DNA from: Acidimicrobiaceae bacterium
GTDB lineage: Bacteria > Actinomycetota > Acidimicrobiia > Acidimicrobiales > Acidimicrobiaceae
NCBI GenBank assembly: GCA_013044385.1
Contig: JABEUN010000003.1
Location: 1-50,027 of the forward strand
DNA length: 50,027 nucleotides
Direction of reading: 5' to 3'
Position 1 is the first letter of the stretch; the number at the start of each line of letters is the position of its first letter. Shown piece after piece: positions 6,647-18,958 of this stretch. The notes under the pieces are model-generated. The model was given only the letters and a program-made list of their open reading frames with translations, had not been told where the DNA came from and did not search any database. The position numbers and the translations under genes are program-made.

Positions 6647-7687
6647 TTAGACCGCTCGTGTGGTAGGCCCAACTTGGCCTCGGTGCCTACGCTTCTCGTC
6701 GTACATAAGTTGATCCGCATTGGCGAGGAGTGTCTGAAGGTTGGAGTCAACTCCGTAGGTGCTTGCTGAACCAATCGATGCTGAGATGGAGCAGTAACCT
6801 AGTGACTCTTTCAATCTTCGCAGGAGGATGTCTGCTCCAATAGCATCGGTTTCAGGAGCGAGGATAGCGAACTCATCTCCTCCAAGTCGGGCGACGATGT
6901 CAGTCGTCCTGCACGTCTGTCGGAGGACTTGGGCCGCTTTGACTATCATCTCGTCACCTGCAGCGTGGCCCAGGCGATCGTTTATGGACTTGAGTCCATC
7001 GAGATCCATCATCATGATCGTCGTGTTGCCCGGATAGCGGATACGCCTGCGTTGTTCGATCGCCATCGCGTTTCTAAAGCCGGCACGGTTTGCCAAACCG
7101 GTTAGGGGGTCTTCGGCAGCTGCTGATTCGAATGTATCGGCACGGGATCTGAGGTTGGCGAGGTCGTTGGCGAGACTGTCGGCGGCGGAGGCGAATCTAG
7201 CGAGAACTGCGACCATCCCTGCGGTACCAGCCAAATCGACCTTCGGTTCTTTTAGAGATAGCAGAACAATTGCGTCGGACTCGTCGATCTGTGCCACTGC
7301 AACGGCCCGTACTGGGCTGAAGGTGAAACTACTATTTTCCACCACCGCGGCCTTTGCACCTTTCCAGTGCTTCACGAAGACACCAGTACCCATGCTGTAC
7401 TGGTCGGCGTCACTACTTGCGGCTCTTATGTTATGTAGCCCATTGCGGTTGCTGGAAGCTTCAGGCAGGAACTCGGGAGGAAGTGTCAGCTGATCACCGG
7501 GCTTAACCAGATCAGGGAAGGATCTGGCCAAGGCTACTTCCACTTTTCCACTGACGAATTTCACTCGCGCCACTGCGGTGGCCCCGGTTGCATTTCGCAC
7601 AGTATCGAATGCCTCGACAAGTCTCATGGCCATTGGGTCCACCGGGAGAAATGTACCGCTAGCGTCCGATGCCCTGAGCACTGTCAT
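6647..7687 (-). CDS. GGDEF-domain diguanylate cyclase
   Basis: This 346-residue cytoplasmic protein ends in a GGDEF domain that would make cyclic di-GMP from two GTP. Visible motifs are DPLTGLANR (193-201), MMDLDGLKSIND (227-238), an RTTD inhibitory-site motif (260-263) exactly five residues before GGDEF (269-273), and a C-terminal ADQLMYDEKR helix. The first 185 residues look like a GAF-type sensory domain (inference), with no membrane segment. ATG 7687 is preceded by a promoter-like pair whose -10 lies only six bases upstream, suggesting a leaderless transcript. The intact catalytic and I-site residues predict an active, product-inhibited cyclase. The signal is unknown. Confidence 0.93.
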   Translation of the reverse strand: MTVLRASDASGTFLPVDPMAMRLVEAFDTVRNATGATAVARVKFVSGKVEVALARSFPDLVKPGDQLTLPPEFLPEASSNRNGLHNIRAASSDADQYSMGTGVFVKHWKGAKAAVVENSSFTFSPVRAVAVAQIDESDAIVLLSLKEPKVDLAGTAGMVAVLARFASAADSLANDLANLRSRADTFESAAAEDPLTGLANRAGFRNAMAIEQRRRIRYPGNTTIMMMDLDGLKSINDRLGHAAGDEMIVKAAQVLRQTCRTTDIVARLGGDEFAILAPETDAIGADILLRRLKESLGYCSISASIGSASTYGVDSNLQTLLANADQLMYDEKRRHRGQVGPTTRAV

Positions 7688-10740: not shown

Positions 10741-11982
10741 ATGAGTTCCAGTGTTGTAGATTCGACCTCGGGTCAGCGCCCGAGGAGGACTCGGCGTGCT
10801 CGGACAACCATTGGCCTTGTTTCTGCATGTTCTGGAGTTGCACAGGGTTTCGGACGTTTCTCCTTTGCCGTAATGCTTCCCGAAATGGTCAGGACCTACC
10901 TCCACTCCTACTCGTTGGCAGGAAGTCTCGGCCTTGCAAACGTTGGGGCATACCTCATCGGTACCGCCTCAGTGTCAGGACTTGCGGCGCGAAGATCTAG
11001 TAGACATCTGATGTTGTTCGGTCTGGTGTTGAGCACCACTGGTATGTCACTAATGGCAATTTCACCGAGCCTGTTCCTCACATTTGTGGCGATGGTGCTA
11101 GCAGGAATCGGTGGCTCATTCATATGGGTGCCCGCTCCGGGAATGGCAGCAAAAGTTGCACCACCTCGACTGCGCGGATTGGCCATGGGTTTGGCTGCGG
11201 CGGGAATTGGTGTGGCTGTGACGGTATCAGCACAACTTGCTCGTTCACTCGCCAATTTGCCAGGTCAATCGCCCTGGAGGGTTCAGTGGGGAATTCAGGC
11301 GGCTTGTACCGTAATCGTGCTCGTCCTTGCGGTGGCATACCTGCCAAAAGAGCAGGTCGGAACTAGCGAGGTTCGTGGAAGAGCCAGAGACCTCACGCTT
11401 GCTCCCGGGTGGCGTTCGGTTACTCTCGCCTACACCGCCTATGGACTTTCATATGCCCTATTCTTCACGTTTTTCGTGGCAGAGATCGAAAAGCACTCCC
11501 ACTTAAGCACCTCTAGGGCATCTTTTGACTACGGGATCATCGGCCTGGTTTCCATCTTCGGCGGGGTATTTGCGGGAAGGGTATCTGACAGGGTGGGACG
11601 CGTCCCGGTGATGGCGACAGGATTCGTGATGATGGCGGGATCTTCTATTCTGGTGCTATACGGAGGAGGCTGGGCACAGCTTGTGGCGGCGGTGGCATTT
11701 GGACTTCCGATGTCGGGGGTGGCCAACGCTGTAGCGGCCTATGTAGGGGATCTGGTGCCGCCGCGTTCGTTCTCTGGCGCCTTCGGTTTGGTCACACTCT
11801 GTTTCGGTGTGACTCAGGCGATTGCAAATCAGCTCGGAGGAACATTGGCCACCCTTCTTGGCGGTTTTGCTGTGGACTTTAAAATCTCCCTCGTAGCAGC
11901 TATGGCCGGTGCTGTTTTGAGCCTCTCGGCGGGACACTTTGCCAAACGTGCACGTCGGGCTGGTTTGAATTCACAGACCTAG
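10741..11982 (+). CDS. YbfB/YjiJ-family MFS transporter
   Basis: This 413-residue permease has about twelve membrane segments. Its first helix reads GVAQGFGRFSFAVMLPEM, matching the GxGRFxxxxLLPxM hallmark of the YbfB/YjiJ branch of MFS. A typical MFS loop, GRVSDRVGRVPVMATG, occurs near residue 280. ATG 10741 is preferred over upstream TTG 10720 because AGGAG sits four bases before it. Its stop overlaps the 3' end of the convergent parA-like gene by twelve bases. Transport of a small metabolite is likely, but the substrate is not predictable. Carboxylate or aromatic-acid transport is a common guess for this branch. Confidence 0.85.
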   Translation: MSSSVVDSTSGQRPRRTRRARTTIGLVSACSGVAQGFGRFSFAVMLPEMVRTYLHSYSLAGSLGLANVGAYLIGTASVSGLAARRSSRHLMLFGLVLSTTGMSLMAISPSLFLTFVAMVLAGIGGSFIWVPAPGMAAKVAPPRLRGLAMGLAAAGIGVAVTVSAQLARSLANLPGQSPWRVQWGIQAACTVIVLVLAVAYLPKEQVGTSEVRGRARDLTLAPGWRSVTLAYTAYGLSYALFFTFFVAEIEKHSHLSTSRASFDYGIIGLVSIFGGVFAGRVSDRVGRVPVMATGFVMMAGSSILVLYGGGWAQLVAAVAFGLPMSGVANAVAAYVGDLVPPRSFSGAFGLVTLCFGVTQAIANQLGGTLATLLGGFAVDFKISLVAAMAGAVLSLSAGHFAKRARRAGLNSQT

Positions 11983-12723
11983 CTCGGTTGCTAGCTCGTG
12001 ATAGAGCTGCAAGTAGCTGTCGGCGGCCTTGGATTTAGGAGCCGCAAGCGATATCGGAGCCCTCCGATCCTGCATACGATCAAAGAGCGTAGAGCGACTG
12101 ATTTGGGTTTCCAGCACGAGACTTCCACTTGCTCGAGCCTCGTCAATGCTTTCCAGATCTACGTGTCTTCTTGGGTCTACCATCGTGAAAAGTACTCTGG
12201 TTCTGCGTTTTGTCAGGGTTGGAATTCGATCTTTTGCCTCTTCGAGTGCATGCAGGGAGAGCTTGGATGGAGTCATGACGAAAATGACAAGGTCTGAGGC
12301 CACCAAGGTCGCCTTGGCTAGTGGACCAGCCGACGGAGGTAGATCAACCACTATCAGTTCGTAATCAGTGGAACCGATATCGAATATCCTCTCGATGCCC
12401 TTAGAAGGACTCTTTAATGTGGCAAGATGCGCGTCGAGGTTCAAAGTCTCGACTCCATAGGGAATCAAGTCCAGTCCCTCATAATCGGTGCCGAATACGC
12501 TGGTTTTGAGGGCAGCCCGTGCAGTGGTCTTTCCGGATGCGACCTTGGTAATTGATCTACTGTCGGTTCGTACAGTCCTGAGCATCCAAGAGGCAGAGCC
12601 TTGGGGATCTAGATCGATCAGCAGGGTTCGATAACCCTGTCTTGAAGAGAGATACGCTACGTTTATCGCAGTTGTGGTCTTGCCGACGCCACCCTTCAGC
12701 GAGTAGCAGGTGAGTACCTTCAT
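11971..12723 (-). CDS. Orphan ParA-family ATPase
   Basis: This 250-residue protein has the deviant Walker A KGGVGKTT (10-17, with signature Lys10), the DLDPQGSAS switch region (37-45) and a Walker-B-like IVVDLPPSAG segment near 130. These are the ParA/MinD features of ATPases that form dynamic patterns on the nucleoid to place plasmids, chromosomes or protein cargos. No parB gene or parS-like cluster adjoins. Its ATG overlaps the stop of the CHAD gene by four bases, so the two are translationally coupled and probably act together. Its own 3' end overlaps the convergent MFS gene. I infer a cargo-positioning role with the CHAD protein as adaptor. Chromosome segregation is less likely. Confidence 0.9.
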   Translation of the reverse strand: MKVLTCYSLKGGVGKTTTAINVAYLSSRQGYRTLLIDLDPQGSASWMLRTVRTDSRSITKVASGKTTARAALKTSVFGTDYEGLDLIPYGVETLNLDAHLATLKSPSKGIERIFDIGSTDYELIVVDLPPSAGPLAKATLVASDLVIFVMTPSKLSLHALEEAKDRIPTLTKRRTRVLFTMVDPRRHVDLESIDEARASGSLVLETQISRSTLFDRMQDRRAPISLAAPKSKAADSYLQLYHELATELGL

Positions 12724-14243
12724 AGACCTCTCCTGTGTTTTGCTTTATTCCCGGAGTTGGGTTGCCGCTTGATGGAGCTGATTAGGGCTACCCAGTGCCT
12801 TGATGCGCTTGGTGAAATGAAATGTGCTAGAGCGGTCTCCACGCCGTCTGGGATTTCGAAGATGCTCTGGTCAACGGATTCGATCTTTAGCTGGTCGAGT
12901 AGGGCGGCCAAGGTCGCCCTGTCCTGTAATTTGCCGAGGTAGTCCTGCAAGACTTTCATGTCCGAGATTGACAACGAAGCTGCCTTCTGGTCGATGATCG
13001 AGGAGTAGGCCTCAAGCAGATACCTGAGCTGCTTGGCACTCTTCCTCAGTGCGTGGAGTCGTTCGGCATCGGTGTGGGTCCTACTGTCGCTGGCTAGTTT
13101 GACCATCCGGCGTCGGGATCCTTCGAGTTGAAAAGCGGCTCTTTCGCCAAGTGGGGGCTGATCGGTTGGATCGGAGATGATCAGCTGTAAGGCTAGAGAG
13201 GACCAATCCTCAAGCGTGGAGTTGAGAGATTCACCCTCCAAATAGCTCCTAAGTGCTTCTAGGGATGCCTGTCTCAGTTTGTTGATCTTTCCAACAACTT
13301 CTGGAGTGTTGAGCCAAGAGATGTGGGGGATCTCCTCGAGTGCCACGTCCAAATCCCGGAGATCTCCAGCCATCGCTGCTGCCTCTCCGAGCCTCCTCCG
13401 AAGGGGTCTGGCGACTTCGCCTCGAAGGTTCGATTCCGCCGCAGCGATCAACGATCTGGCCCTTCTCGTGGCCACCCTGAATTCATGTGCGAACTCGGTG
13501 TCTATGTCACGAAAGAGTCCGTCCAGGTTTCGCTTTGCAGCAGCTAGTAGGTAGGCGAGCAGCTTTCCTAGTGCTACTTCGTAGCCCATCGACCCGTCAA
13601 GTGGTACATGAAAACCGGCCGAATAGTCAAAGCGCCGCCTACCGCGTAGCCAAAGAATCGCCCTCCATAGGTCCACCGATGAGTCCATTGTCGCCAAGGA
13701 AGAACCGTACGCGGTCACCGCAACAAGGGCTCTGGCGAGGTCTGATTCGTATCCCCGTTTCGGCCTAAGTCTTATCCAAGTCTGGTGTAACTCACTGACA
13801 AGGTCTATCTCAATGGTTCCCACGTGCTTGTTCAGGTCATCGAAGATCAGCACCTCTGTGAAGCTGACTTCGAATTCGGCAACTCTCAGTATCGCCCGAC
13901 CGCTGGTCAATTTGGAGACCCTGTTGCCCAAACCAGTAGGTGAGATCGCAGAAGGCAGAGCGAAGTCAGAACCGGCATCTACATACAGAGTTCCTCTTTG
14001 GCCATACTCTCTGGGTGGAAGTAGGTAAATTTCAGCCTGGTTCGAGCCAGCGGTAACCCTCGACTCAAGGTCCATCCCCGTAGAAGCAATCCGCCAGTCC
14101 AGTGAGTCCCACAGACCCCTGATTTGCACAGTTTGAGGGCGGACCTCAATCCTGTGGTCCTTGAGTGACGCTGCTATCACTTGGATTATGTCCTCAGTGG
14201 AAGCGGCTATTGACAGTGACACGGGGGAGGCATTTGGGACCAC
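12720..14243 (-). CDS. CYTH-like/CHAD-domain protein (polyphosphate-associated)
   Basis: This 507-residue protein has two parts. The N-terminal 1-200 contains a remnant resembling CYTH proteins (SLDWRIASTGMDLES at 47-61), but it lacks the ExExK triphosphate-binding signature, so it is probably not an active triphosphatase. The C-terminal 225-480 is a CHAD domain: HEFRVATRRARS (253-264), RDLDVALE (296-303), LHALRKSAKQLRYLLEAY (396-413) and LGKLQDRATL (436-445). CHAD helices carry conserved His, Arg and Lys that bind polyphosphate, and CHAD proteins are known to target polyphosphate granules. GTG 14243 follows an extended -10 by six bases. It is the first gene of a two-gene unit with the overlapping ParA gene. 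Confidence 0.88.
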   Translation of the reverse strand: MVPNASPVSLSIAASTEDIIQVIAASLKDHRIEVRPQTVQIRGLWDSLDWRIASTGMDLESRVTAGSNQAEIYLLPPREYGQRGTLYVDAGSDFALPSAISPTGLGNRVSKLTSGRAILRVAEFEVSFTEVLIFDDLNKHVGTIEIDLVSELHQTWIRLRPKRGYESDLARALVAVTAYGSSLATMDSSVDLWRAILWLRGRRRFDYSAGFHVPLDGSMGYEVALGKLLAYLLAAAKRNLDGLFRDIDTEFAHEFRVATRRARSLIAAAESNLRGEVARPLRRRLGEAAAMAGDLRDLDVALEEIPHISWLNTPEVVGKINKLRQASLEALRSYLEGESLNSTLEDWSSLALQLIISDPTDQPPLGERAAFQLEGSRRRMVKLASDSRTHTDAERLHALRKSAKQLRYLLEAYSSIIDQKAASLSISDMKVLQDYLGKLQDRATLAALLDQLKIESVDQSIFEIPDGVETALAHFISPSASRHWVALISSIKRQPNSGNKAKHRRGL

Positions 14244-14268: not shown

Positions 14269-14472
14269 GTGCGGCTGAGCCCGCTGGTCACAACTAGAAG
14301 TTACAATTGCGGAGCCGCTGTCCTAGAAAGGAAGTTTAGTTGTCCAAATTGCAAATCGACAGCCCAACGTAGGTCGAATTTCCAGAGGTACATCCAGCCA
14401 GCTTTTCAATACGCAGAAGGTTTCAAAAGGGTGTTTTTCAGGAGTTATGTAGCTTCTGCAATTCTGATGTGA
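14269..14472 (+). CDS. Possible small Cys-containing protein (doubtful)
   Basis: A 67-codon GTG frame contains YNCGAAVLERKFSCPNCKS, which resembles part of a zinc ribbon (CGxxV and CPxC). The first CxxC is incomplete because Ser replaces the first Cys, leaving only three candidate Cys ligands. There is no ribosome site. It may be a decayed zinc-ribbon gene or a chance frame in the region upstream of the phosphoesterase gene. Confidence 0.2.
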   Translation: MRLSPLVTTRSYNCGAAVLERKFSCPNCKSTAQRRSNFQRYIQPAFQYAEGFKRVFFRSYVASAILM

Positions 14473-14570
14473 GTGCCAGGACCATTTCCGAGTTCCAATT
14501 CGATCTCTGCGGTCAGCGCTGTCTGCAGGACAGTTTTGTTGGCTTGGGCTCAGACTCAATAGGAGGAATG

Positions 14571-15851
14571 ATGTTTAGTTTTATTCACTGTTCGGACCTG
14601 CACCTAGGTACACCGTTCGGCGGGCTTAGGAGGATTGGGTCAGAACTCACAGCCGGCCTACATAACGCGACCTTCGATGCATTCGACCGCCTATGCACTA
14701 CTGCAATCGAGACTCAAGTGGACTTCATGGTGATTGCTGGCGATGTTTATGACGGCATAAAGTATGGTCCGAAAACTGCTCGGTTCCTACGCGACCGTCT
14801 CGAGGAACTGGTCCAAGCTGGAGTGGCAGTCTATGTGTGTCTCGGAAACCACGATGATGTCGACGACCTTCTTGCCGGGATCGTACCCCTTCCTAGAGGA
14901 GTGCATGTGTTCTCTGGAGATGCACCGGAGACTTTCATCCATCAGACGAGGTCTGGTGAGTTGGTGGCTCTGCACGGTAGGAGCTTTCCAACTCGGATGG
15001 TCCGCTTCGACCTTGCCACCGGGTTTCCTATGGCAAGTGCCGGTTGTTATAACATCGGAGTCCTCCACTGCACTTTGGCGGGTTCAGTCGGCCATGAAAC
15101 TCAAGCCCCGGTTTCTACTCAGAAGCTCGCATCATTCGGGTTCGATTATTGGGCGCTTGGCCATATCCACACCAGATCCTTGACGGAGGTAGGCGAGTGT
15201 TTGATTAGCTACTCCGGGAATCTTCAGGGTCTGTCCATCAAGCCCAGTGAACGAGGGGATAAGGGAGCTCTGCTGGTCACCGTGGAGGGTGGGAGGCCTA
15301 TTGTCGAGTTCCTTCCGATCTCAAGATTCAAGTTTGACTACCTGACCGTTGAGGCGGCTTCGAACCAAAGTGAGGCTGAGACAGAAGATGTAGAAGACCG
15401 TGTATTTGGCGAACTTCTTCGCATTCAAGAGGATCTCAAGGCTGGAACAGTGCTGGTTTTGAGGATTGATCTGGTAGGTAGGTATCGAGGACGGGCATTG
15501 GAGGCAGATGAACTCAATATGGTGGCAGACAATCTGAATCTGTCGCTTCGTAGGGCGGGAATCGAAACCATTTACGTCGAATCCCTGAAGTCCTCGATGC
15601 TGCCAGAGTTGACAATCGAAGCATTGAGCAGCCTTGGAGGACTGCTCGAGGCGTTCGACGGTGCCAAGCGGGAACTTTCTGATCCAGATTTAGTGCAGGA
15701 ATATTTCAATGCAATGGTGCCGTCTGGAAAGAACGCGGCACCACCACTTTTGCGAACTGAGTTCGTGGATTCGATCGATCCTGTTCAGATCATTGCTGAG
15801 GTCAGCGATGAAGTTCTAGCCCTCCTCCTCGAGGGGGGTGGCGAGAGTTGA
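14571..15851 (+). CDS. YhaO/SbcD-like DNA exonuclease (metallophosphoesterase)
   Basis: This 426-residue calcineurin-like phosphoesterase belongs to the Mre11/SbcD superfamily, closest in layout to YhaO. Metal-site motifs are SDLHLG (8-13), GDVYDG (57-62), GNHDD (92-96), a histidine in LHCTLAG (near 163) and GHIHTR (near 200). These bind two metal ions for DNA-end or hairpin cleavage. The start is ATG 14571 with AGGAGG at 14561-14566; the open frame extends upstream to 14469 without homology. The last bases overlap the TTG start of the ATPase gene, so the two proteins should be made together as a nuclease-ATPase complex. The C-terminal 250-426 is probably the partner-binding region. Confidence 0.9.
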   Translation: MFSFIHCSDLHLGTPFGGLRRIGSELTAGLHNATFDAFDRLCTTAIETQVDFMVIAGDVYDGIKYGPKTARFLRDRLEELVQAGVAVYVCLGNHDDVDDLLAGIVPLPRGVHVFSGDAPETFIHQTRSGELVALHGRSFPTRMVRFDLATGFPMASAGCYNIGVLHCTLAGSVGHETQAPVSTQKLASFGFDYWALGHIHTRSLTEVGECLISYSGNLQGLSIKPSERGDKGALLVTVEGGRPIVEFLPISRFKFDYLTVEAASNQSEAETEDVEDRVFGELLRIQEDLKAGTVLVLRIDLVGRYRGRALEADELNMVADNLNLSLRRAGIETIYVESLKSSMLPELTIEALSSLGGLLEAFDGAKRELSDPDLVQEYFNAMVPSGKNAAPPLLRTEFVDSIDPVQIIAEVSDEVLALLLEGGGES

Positions 15852-18800
15852 GGATAAGTTCTATCGCACTTGGGTCCAGGGCGAACAACCTTAAAATTGA
15901 TGGCATCGGATCGAATCTGGCTGTGATCTTCGGGCCAAACGAAGCGGGAAAGACCACTCTAAGAAGGTTTGTCAACCAGACGCTATTCGGAACTGGAAAC
16001 TGGAAACCAAGCTACGTAGATGGGAGTTTGGGGCTCGATCTAGCTGGAATCCAGTACTTGATTGAACGGGATCGCAAGGGGCGCAGGATCTTACAGGTCG
16101 GGACCAACGAGCCTGTGTCGTCGAACACAAACACGGTGATTTCCGTGTTGAGCGGTTCCAATCCGCAGCTACTTGACCAGTTGGGCCAACTGTGCACGTT
16201 GGGCCTCAATGAGCTGGCCCTATTGAAGACGGCAACACCCTCCGAGGTGGAGTATCTTCTAGCGGGCCTGCTTGAGTCTGGTAATAGTAGTGGCAGCTTG
16301 AAGAGGCTAGAAGATCGACTGAAAAAGGAGTTCGAGGAGATCTACAAGCCCCGGGCTTCCTGTGCACTTTCAGATGCAGCTGGTCTTTACCGGGATCTCG
16401 ATGCGAGGAGTCGACGTGTCGAGGAGGGGTATAGGCGGTCCCAGGCGCTAACTGCCGAGGTGGCCGAACTAACTCAATCAACCGAACTACGCAACCGGCG
16501 AATAGTTCAGTTGAGACGACTGGACCTGCCATTCGACAAAGTAGTGGAGAGTTCCGAGGAGCTTTTACGCCGGCTGTCTGAGATACCTACCCACCTTTTC
16601 GACCTACCGCTACTACATCATGATTCGATCAAACTGATTGCTGGACTTGGACAGAAGTTGACAGCTACTTCTGAGACGTTGGAGAGCTGCTCTGCAGAGT
16701 TGAACAAGGCAGAATCCGAGATCGCCTTGACGAGATTCGGCGAGTCCGAGAGGGAAGCTTTCGGACTTATTGGTGCCGCCTTAGCTCTTGAGGTGGATGT
16801 GGCAGCAAAAGAGATCTCGGAGCTAAAGGGGGAGTCTCGAAAGCTCGAAGAGGCCATTTCGGAACGAGTCGTGGAGCTTGGCATCCCATTTCCTCCTTTC
16901 AGGCAGAGCGGTGTTGACGAGACGGGGGCGTTGTTACATATCGTCCAACTCGATAGGCGCGCGATCGAGTTGGAAGGATTTATCGATCAGACTGAAGCCG
17001 ACCTTCGAAGGCTCAACATGCCTAAGCGTTCCTCTCTGACTGAAGGAGAGGCGCGATCTTTTGAGCAGGAGTTCACGATATTGCGGACTTATACAGAGAC
17101 GGCCAAAGCTTTGGAAACCGCAAGGGACAGACTTTCAAGAGTGGATCTCGGGACACGAGTCGCAGCTGGCCAAGACCCACTCGCTCTGTTTATCGTCGTT
17201 ATCCTTTCAGTGACGGCATTGGCAGTCTCAGCAGTTGGAAAGAACTACATCTCGGCCCTACTTGACCTGCTCGTTGCATCCTTAGTCGCATTCATGTTGC
17301 TTCGAAACCGTAATACCGCAAGAAGTTCGCACCTAAGCCAGAATGCTGCCGGTGAGCAGGTGGAGGTAGTGCTGAGGGACTTCAAACGCTGCGAGGAGGC
17401 CCACGAAGCTTCCAAGGGCTCAGTAATCGGCTACTTTTCGGGGTCCTTGCCGGGCGATGTCCAGCTTGAGCAACGGGTGGCCAACCTGGGACGGAGACTA
17501 AGCGACTATGAGTCGGCCGTCCGGTCTGAACAAGAAGCGTCAGATGAGTCAACGAGCTTGATGAGAATGCTTGAGGAACTGCGGATCGAGCTGGAGCTTA
17601 TCCACGGTGAATCGGATGAAGTCATTCAGTCTCTGTTTGCAGTTCCGTACCTTCCGCTGAAAAATGGTGCGCTCGGTACTTTCTACAGGGCTTTGGCAAA
17701 TTTGGCCGATAGGGTCGAGCGATTGAATTCTCTCGAGCTAAGTCTGCAGGAGAGACGGGCGGTTTACAACGCTCTCGTCGACGAAAGAAGAGAGATCTGT
17801 GAATCGGTCTGTGCACTACTTGACATCACGCCACAGTCTGACAGGATAGCCGGACAACTTTCTGACCTGAGAGCCGAACTTGCAGCAGCCGAAAGGACCT
17901 TTAACCTCTATTCCATGCGCATCCCAGAACTAAAGGCGGCCCTGTCTTCCCAGCGAATGCTTTGGGAGGAGACTAGGGAGAGTCTTTGTGAAGCATTGCG
18001 GAGATTCGGAATTGACGATTCCAGCGAAAGTGTAGATCGAGTCGTTGCACAGTTTGGGTTCGACAGCGATGCACTGTTGGAGACACGACAAGCGCTCGGT
18101 ACACTGCAGTACTCCTTGGGTTCGCTCGTTTCGAATTTGGGAGGCGAGTTTGAAGATGACGATGAGGCAGCTTCACTACTGCACGTCGCAGAAGAACTCT
18201 CATCTTCATTCGCTGCCACGACGGGCCCGAGGATCGGAAGTTGTCGAGAAATTGCCACCTATGTCAGCTCCTTGGTTTCGAGTCTTGGATTAAGGGCCAG
18301 ACGTCTGCTTGAGTCACTAGAAGACGAAGTGAAGTCCGAAACAGAAAAGATCGTCTTGAAGAGAAATGAGATCGCCGAGCTGGAAGGAGGCGATCTCTTC
18401 AGTATTGCTGACGACATTGGCGATGCCGGTGAGAATATCAAGTACTTACTTTCGCGAGCAACGAAGCTGAAGGCCGGGATCACGCTGTTGGGCGCGGCCA
18501 AGAGAATCTACTCAAAAGAGCAACAACCAGTTGTTCTGCGGGCAGCTAGTGAATTCTTTTCAAGAGCTACAGCGGGGAGGTACATCGAGATACTTGTATC
18601 AGAAGAGTCAAAGTTCAAGGTCGTTGACCTGCGCGGGAGAGAGATGAACATCGAAGATCTCTCGTCGGGGACGGTCGACCTACTGATGATCTCTCTGAGG
18701 ATCTCGTACCTTTCGATACCTGAGTCGATTCAGAGCACTTGGCCGGTCATATTCGACGACGTAATGGTGAACATCGATTCCGAAAGGAGGGGTCAGGTAG

Positions 18801-18958
18801 CTAAAGCTATTCTTGAGGCTTCTAGATCCAGACAAATTCTCTATTTGACGTGCCACGGCGATCATCGAGACCAGCTAGTCCAAGGCGCATCTGAATTTTT
18901 ACAACAGGACCCGGAGTTCGGCTTTTCGCAATTCTCACTGGACAGAATCGAGCTTTAG
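15848..18958 (+). CDS. YhaN-like SbcC/Rad50-type ATPase
   Basis: This 1036-residue split ABC-type ATPase has Walker A GPNEAGKTT near 29-37 at the N-terminus. The C-terminal signature LSSGTVDLL (near 940) and Walker B VIFDDVMVN (near 976) complete the site. Long heptad-rich regions between them form coiled coils. Two hydrophobic segments at about 444-463 and 467-485 interrupt the coiled coil, as in YhaN and unlike SbcC, so the complex may be membrane-attached. It starts at TTG 15848, overlapping the upstream stop as TTGA, with a G-rich sequence just before. With the YhaO-like partner it should process DNA ends; a role in defence is possible but unproven. Confidence 0.88.
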   Translation: MRISSIALGSRANNLKIDGIGSNLAVIFGPNEAGKTTLRRFVNQTLFGTGNWKPSYVDGSLGLDLAGIQYLIERDRKGRRILQVGTNEPVSSNTNTVISVLSGSNPQLLDQLGQLCTLGLNELALLKTATPSEVEYLLAGLLESGNSSGSLKRLEDRLKKEFEEIYKPRASCALSDAAGLYRDLDARSRRVEEGYRRSQALTAEVAELTQSTELRNRRIVQLRRLDLPFDKVVESSEELLRRLSEIPTHLFDLPLLHHDSIKLIAGLGQKLTATSETLESCSAELNKAESEIALTRFGESEREAFGLIGAALALEVDVAAKEISELKGESRKLEEAISERVVELGIPFPPFRQSGVDETGALLHIVQLDRRAIELEGFIDQTEADLRRLNMPKRSSLTEGEARSFEQEFTILRTYTETAKALETARDRLSRVDLGTRVAAGQDPLALFIVVILSVTALAVSAVGKNYISALLDLLVASLVAFMLLRNRNTARSSHLSQNAAGEQVEVVLRDFKRCEEAHEASKGSVIGYFSGSLPGDVQLEQRVANLGRRLSDYESAVRSEQEASDESTSLMRMLEELRIELELIHGESDEVIQSLFAVPYLPLKNGALGTFYRALANLADRVERLNSLELSLQERRAVYNALVDERREICESVCALLDITPQSDRIAGQLSDLRAELAAAERTFNLYSMRIPELKAALSSQRMLWEETRESLCEALRRFGIDDSSESVDRVVAQFGFDSDALLETRQALGTLQYSLGSLVSNLGGEFEDDDEAASLLHVAEELSSSFAATTGPRIGSCREIATYVSSLVSSLGLRARRLLESLEDEVKSETEKIVLKRNEIAELEGGDLFSIADDIGDAGENIKYLLSRATKLKAGITLLGAAKRIYSKEQQPVVLRAASEFFSRATAGRYIEILVSEESKFKVVDLRGREMNIEDLSSGTVDLLMISLRISYLSIPESIQSTWPVIFDDVMVNIDSERRGQVAKAILEASRSRQILYLTCHGDHRDQLVQGASEFLQQDPEFGFSQFSLDRIEL

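Follow-up and report, generated by a model that had tools for sequence, protein, structure and literature searches.

A conserved CHAD-ParA gene pair in Acidimicrobiaceae and other bacteria is a candidate module for positioning polyphosphate granules

We analysed a 50,027-nucleotide stretch of an Acidimicrobiaceae genome (assembly GCA_013044385.1, contig JABEUN010000003.1, positions 1 to 50,027; hereafter the window), in which the gene of an orphan ParA-family ATPase follows directly on the gene of a protein with a CHAD domain, a pairing that may serve to position polyphosphate (polyP) granules. The CHAD gene ends in ...CTATGA and parA initiates at that ATG, and the coordinates and four-base overlap reported in the initial annotation were exact. 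The features of the locus are as follows.

12720..14243, minus strand: CHAD protein of 507 amino acids with a GTG start, the proposed polyP-granule adaptor, made up of an N-terminal pseudo-CYTH domain, a linker and a CHAD domain (PF05235)
13704..14222, minus strand: N-terminal domain, approximately residues 8-180, with a CYTH/triphosphate-tunnel fold lacking the ExExK motif (AlphaFold2 model and motif comparison)
13587..13649, minus strand: linker between the pseudo-CYTH and CHAD domains, approximately residues 199-219, GRRRFDYSAGFHVPLDGSMGY, a speculative candidate for the ParA contact
12879..13601, minus strand: CHAD domain, residues 215-455, with H253, R256, R260, R296, R407 and Y408, equivalents of the polyP-binding residues of the C. 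tepidum CHAD protein (CtCHAD)
12720..12723, minus strand: ATGA, in which the stop codon of the CHAD gene overlaps the start codon of parA, read from the sequence
11971..12723, minus strand: orphan ParA-family ATPase of 250 amino acids (Pfam match and model; no ParB or parS)
12676..12696, minus strand: KGGVGKT (residues 10-16), a deviant Walker A motif whose signature lysine, K10, does not vary within the clade

The CHAD domain matched PF05235 at 7e-36 (124.7 bits against a Pfam cut-off of 25.6), and this protein is the only CHAD protein in the host genome (a 2.8 Mb, 95%-complete assembly). The window ParA matched AAA_31 and CbiA with KGGVGKT intact. Its description as an orphan proved correct, as the sole ParB-family match in the host lies on another contig (C24), where it adjoins a second, chromosomal-type ParA, and no parS-like 16-mer was detected in the window when up to 3 mismatches were allowed.

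The AlphaFold2 model of the CHAD protein (predicted local distance difference test score, pLDDT, 89.5) placed its CHAD half closest to the structure of CtCHAD with polyP. H253, R256, R260, R296, R407 and Y408 were invariant in all 24 ParA-linked CHADs compared, and mutation of H253, R256, R260, R296 or R418/Y419 in CtCHAD weakens polyP binding (PMC6537752). The invariance of these contact residues is strong support for the view that the CHAD half binds polyP. CtCHAD itself fell within a tree group of 20 rows, 17 of them ParA-linked (support 96), and most linked CHADs were separated from those linked to ppk, the deep order of the tree being weak.

The N-terminal half of the model resembled thiamine triphosphatase and class IV cyclases, and full-length E. 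coli ygiF also matched. This region had been called CYTH-like, which holds at the level of the fold but not of the Pfam domain, since none of the 24 linked CHADs, the window protein included, matched the Pfam CYTH model. The ExExK motif was absent from 59 of 60 full-length linked CHADs, again including the window protein, whereas 19 of 30 unlinked full-length proteins retained it (Fisher 6e-11; the Acidithiobacillus protein discussed below lies outside this sample). By the model, the N-terminal domain of linked CHADs is a CYTH fold whose catalytic motif has been lost. The segment joining the two domains was Y-S-S-K-like in 23 of 69 linked-type CHADs, compared with 2 of 37 others (both of the linked type), whereas P-K-x-x-R-A-L-G, the linker of many ppk-linked CHADs, occurred in none of the 69 and in 15 of the 37. 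These motif counts are suggestive only of a difference in kind between the linkers of ParA-linked and ppk-linked CHADs, and it is speculative that either the linker or the dead CYTH domain contacts ParA. A basic C-terminal tail was also considered as the contact and was rejected, since it is not specific to linked CHADs; such a tail might arise incidentally from a ribosome-binding site within an overlapping gene.

A structural model of the window ParA (pLDDT 86.9) showed a Soj/ParA/McdA-type fold, with Soj/ParA as the best structural matches (template modelling, TM, score 0.85) and McdA at about 0.8; BcsQ models came close in both sequence and fold scores. In the phylogenetic tree the ParAs of this type formed a clade separate from ParB-linked and chromosomal ParAs (support 100). 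No ParB homologue was found near any of 170 clade-ParA loci, whereas 58 of 68 loci of other ParAs had one nearby, counts in which overlapping locus copies were not deduplicated and some flanks extended only 1.5 kb. A hidden parABS system is rejected on this count, together with the lack of parS-like sites in the window and the location of the host ParB elsewhere. K10 and K15 were invariant in 15 of 15 clade members, and R185, which aligned to a conserved arginine of Soj, was kept in 14 of the 15. R195 of Caulobacter ParA is a DNA-binding residue (PMC7229837), and R185 is, judged by the alignment, its probable counterpart. With the signature lysine invariant, R185 nearly so and a second arginine lost, nucleoid binding by the clade ParA is plausible. 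The chromosomal-type ParA matches of five genomes (G249, G280, G287, G240 and G292; families f23/f34) each contain one TGA, and the match probably runs past this stop.

Conservation of the pair was examined at increasing distance. Among 40 relatives, the genomes with a CHAD protein carried a second ParA directly downstream of it, and those without held only the chromosomal-type ParA, three weak CHAD matches excepted. We used a linked-ParA profile (A1) to find clade ParAs in a sample of 296 genomes of the class. CHAD was present in 154 of these genomes, and 27 of 30 high-scoring CHADs checked did not adjoin a ParA. Clade ParA was present in 38, every one of which also had a CHAD (24 adjacent, 14 in trans); the co-occurrence gave Fisher values of 1e-12 overall and 2e-5 for the trans genomes alone, uncorrected for kinship. 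In five genomes of family f22, the CHAD in trans grouped within or beside the linked type.

We collected 103 distinct clade-ParA loci from Acidimicrobiia, other Actinomycetota, Gammaproteobacteria and Alphaproteobacteria. CHAD lay immediately upstream of parA in 74 of them, always on the same strand (74/74), with an exact 4-bp overlap in 40 and a spacing of 30 bp or less in 66; a weak CHAD match was seen at two further loci. Adjacent pairs outside Acidimicrobiia included those of Prauserella muralis (L089, Actinomycetota), Rhodothalassium salexigens (L095, Alphaproteobacteria) and, in Gammaproteobacteria, Thiogranum (L096) and L087; clade ParA was detected in 56 of 370 sampled gammaproteobacterial genomes. 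In the acidobacterium Mor1 both proteins were present, but apart. The CHAD of a pair in Microthrixaceae came from another branch and had ExExK intact, indicating two or more separate origins of the linkage. Among f22 loci, seven (L080-L085 and L193) had a clade ParA with no CHAD beside it and a CHAD elsewhere in the genome, and the Microthrixaceae genome G160 (f22) had one CHAD-linked and one unlinked clade-ParA copy. Clade ParAs that branch deeply and have no CHAD neighbour were observed in sphingomonads (L109, L137), Alcanivorax (L090) and Chitinophagales (L091).

CHAD and ParA were the only genes to recur across 27 wider loci. A conserved larger operon is therefore rejected, the third frequent cluster being an antisense frame of ParA/CHAD, and so is a chance neighbourhood, as the coupling is far above chance across distinct loci and the flanking genes vary. 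The pair, translationally coupled, is thus kept in relatives and across phyla, and we are confident that the CHAD-parA module is real, specific and widespread, occurring in at least two phyla. As to the surroundings of the window pair, an SbcD-like phosphoesterase gene followed by an SbcC/SMC-like ATPase gene (14469-18958, plus strand) diverges from the CHAD gene, and several genomes of this family also have the SbcD-like gene next to the pair. Farther away, a GGDEF-type protein (6647-7687, minus strand) is, judged by its motif, a putative diguanylate cyclase.

The sole further recurring neighbour of the pair, in part of the Gammaproteobacteria, was the polyphosphate kinase gene ppk1. Counted by hand, 12 of 44 gammaproteobacterial carriers had it within 20 kb of their clade parA (chance about 1e-12, computed with 45 carriers). 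The order ppk1-CHAD-parA was contiguous in L087, and ppk1-parA in L284 (2171-5189; genome G473), where ppk1 stops a few bases before the clade parA and all that is left of CHAD is a remnant interrupted by stop codons. Given that remnant, the partner of the G473 ParA may be PPK1 or some other protein. Canonical CHADs of the same class often stood directly beside ppk1 (L020-L055, L188, L191), and three genomes (G190, G108 and G224) each had one ppk1-type and one parA-linked CHAD, which suggests a division of labour between the two types. Among the genomes listed, all those of f23 lacked a PPK1 match.

The initial annotation had cast CHAD as the granule-side adaptor of a ParA-driven system. Of the findings that it named as refuting, two were looked for, a parB or parS partner nearby and a lack of the pair in relatives, and the idea withstood both. 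The invariant contact residues and the ppk1 neighbours bear out the tie to polyP; that ParA positions the granules is something we still infer. We consider it reasonably likely that CHAD and ParA form a two-component positioning module with the polyP granule as its cargo. The CHAD domain would hold polyP chains at the granule surface, while the dead CYTH domain, the linker or both would dock onto ParA dimers, which in their ATP-bound form would coat the nucleoid non-specifically. Docking would trigger ATP hydrolysis and release of ParA, and the granules would deplete and track the resulting ParA gradient by a Brownian ratchet, as carboxysomes do with McdAB, so as to be kept spaced and passed to both daughter cells. 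The ParA-CHAD contact, the stimulation of the ATPase, the binding to the nucleoid and a granule-spacing phenotype are what we infer for such a module. The broader proposition, that this is a widespread, independently assembled, ATP-driven system of polyP positioning in which a phosin with a dead CYTH domain replaces ParB or McdB as adaptor, its pseudo-CYTH domain or linker making the contact with ParA, is one on which we are evenly divided.

Several observations weigh against granule positioning. A basic N-terminal peptide like that of ParB or McdB was not found in the 24 linked CHADs (mean N20 charge -0.6), and the second known DNA-binding arginine of ParA is the one that is not kept. PPK1 was no more than background among carriers (37/38, compared with 265/296), one carrier assembly (G009) being without it, although its presence is uninformative because nearly all genomes have PPK1. 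No CHAD was found in four genomes with a clade ParA (Alcanivorax L090, Chitinophagales L091, G571 and G353), and G473 has only the broken remnant, so that another adaptor or another role is needed in these five. The converse, a CHAD of the linked type in a genome lacking clade ParA, was seen in a few cases (G071, G263).

BcsQ, which acts in cellulose secretion, has the ParA fold and is not a DNA positioner. The clade ParA might likewise work with CHAD on polyP without spacing the granules, as an ATP-dependent switch of polyP metabolism that turns PPK1 up or down or places CHAD on polyP as it is being made. The occurrence of ppk1 beside parA, even where CHAD is lacking as in G473, and the closeness of the BcsQ models are consistent with such a switch, yet the full Soj/ParA-type fold and the signature lysine are kept, the best match is to Soj/ParA and not BcsQ, and most carriers have no ppk1 close to parA; we regard this role as unlikely. 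That the ParA aids chromosome segregation, with DNA as its cargo, CHAD coupling polyP to the process and granule placement a side effect, would agree with the dependence of polyP granule position on segregation in Caulobacter (cited in PMC13052382). It is nevertheless improbable, with no ParB near any clade member, no parS in the window and a separate host ParA beside the only ParB.

The CHAD protein might also be an active CYTH enzyme, an adenylyl cyclase or triphosphatase tuned by polyP, as has been proposed for ACAci at the Acidithiobacillus locus (PMC6416229), which would leave ParA a bystander. The model does show a CYTH fold, but ExExK is lost in linked CHADs and a 4-bp overlap recurring across phyla is not expected of a bystander, and we give this explanation very little weight. 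Equally improbable is adjacency without joint function, arising from a shared promoter or a selfish operon: adjacency by itself never proves function, but here the flanking genes vary, the linkage has more than one origin, and the two proteins co-occur also where their genes lie apart.

If granule positioning by CHAD and ParA is correct, polyP becomes one more cargo of ParA-family ATPases, among which many count as orphans because no partner is known (PMC10241942), and a large CHAD subfamily is explained, including the CHAD of the solved CHAD-polyP structure from C. tepidum. A contact through the pseudo-CYTH domain or linker would in addition be a new kind of ParA-activating interface. According to a 2025 review, the spacing component and the ATP-dependence for polyP granules are unknown, the AlgP tether alone being known (PMC13052382). 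CHAD-parA offers a concrete two-gene candidate for the spacing and inheritance of these granules in a range of bacteria, and its carriers include cultured organisms, namely P. muralis, R. salexigens and, by the literature, Acidithiobacillus. In the literature searched, a search limited in reach, we found no paper proposing ParA-driven polyP positioning.

The pairing itself had been thought undescribed; in fact, a folD-ppk-parA-CHAD cluster has been reported as a conserved neighbourhood in Acidithiobacillus (PMC10892726, PMC6416229), but was not interpreted there as a positioning system. That cluster, as published, shows the same parA-CHAD pairing plus ppk. There, parA was read as a plasmid or chromosome partition gene and the CYTH-CHAD gene as encoding a copper or cyclic AMP protein, with neither a positioning idea nor a survey. 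The CHAD partner resembles the phosins (PptA, ReCHAD, CtCHAD and ygiF) in its CHAD domain and polyP-binding residues, CtCHAD belonging to the same subfamily. It differs in that canonical CHADs of the same class adjoin ppk1 and the CYTH-bearing ones usually keep ExExK, whereas the parA-linked subfamily has a dead CYTH domain. The proposed outcome, granules held apart on the nucleoid, is the same as for AlgP of P. aeruginosa (PMC9239181, PMC13052382), but AlgP is a histone H1-like tether and not an ATPase pair. With ParABS, CHAD-parA shares the ParA fold, the deviant Walker A motif and the best structural matches, Soj and ParA; unlike ParABS, it has neither ParB nor parS, and its ParA falls in a separate clade. 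McdAB is likewise a ParA/MinD-family ATPase gene beside the gene of a cargo-binding partner, with an organelle-like cargo and no centromere, but in CHAD-parA the partner is a CHAD protein with no basic N-terminal peptide in place of McdB, and the cargo would be polyP.

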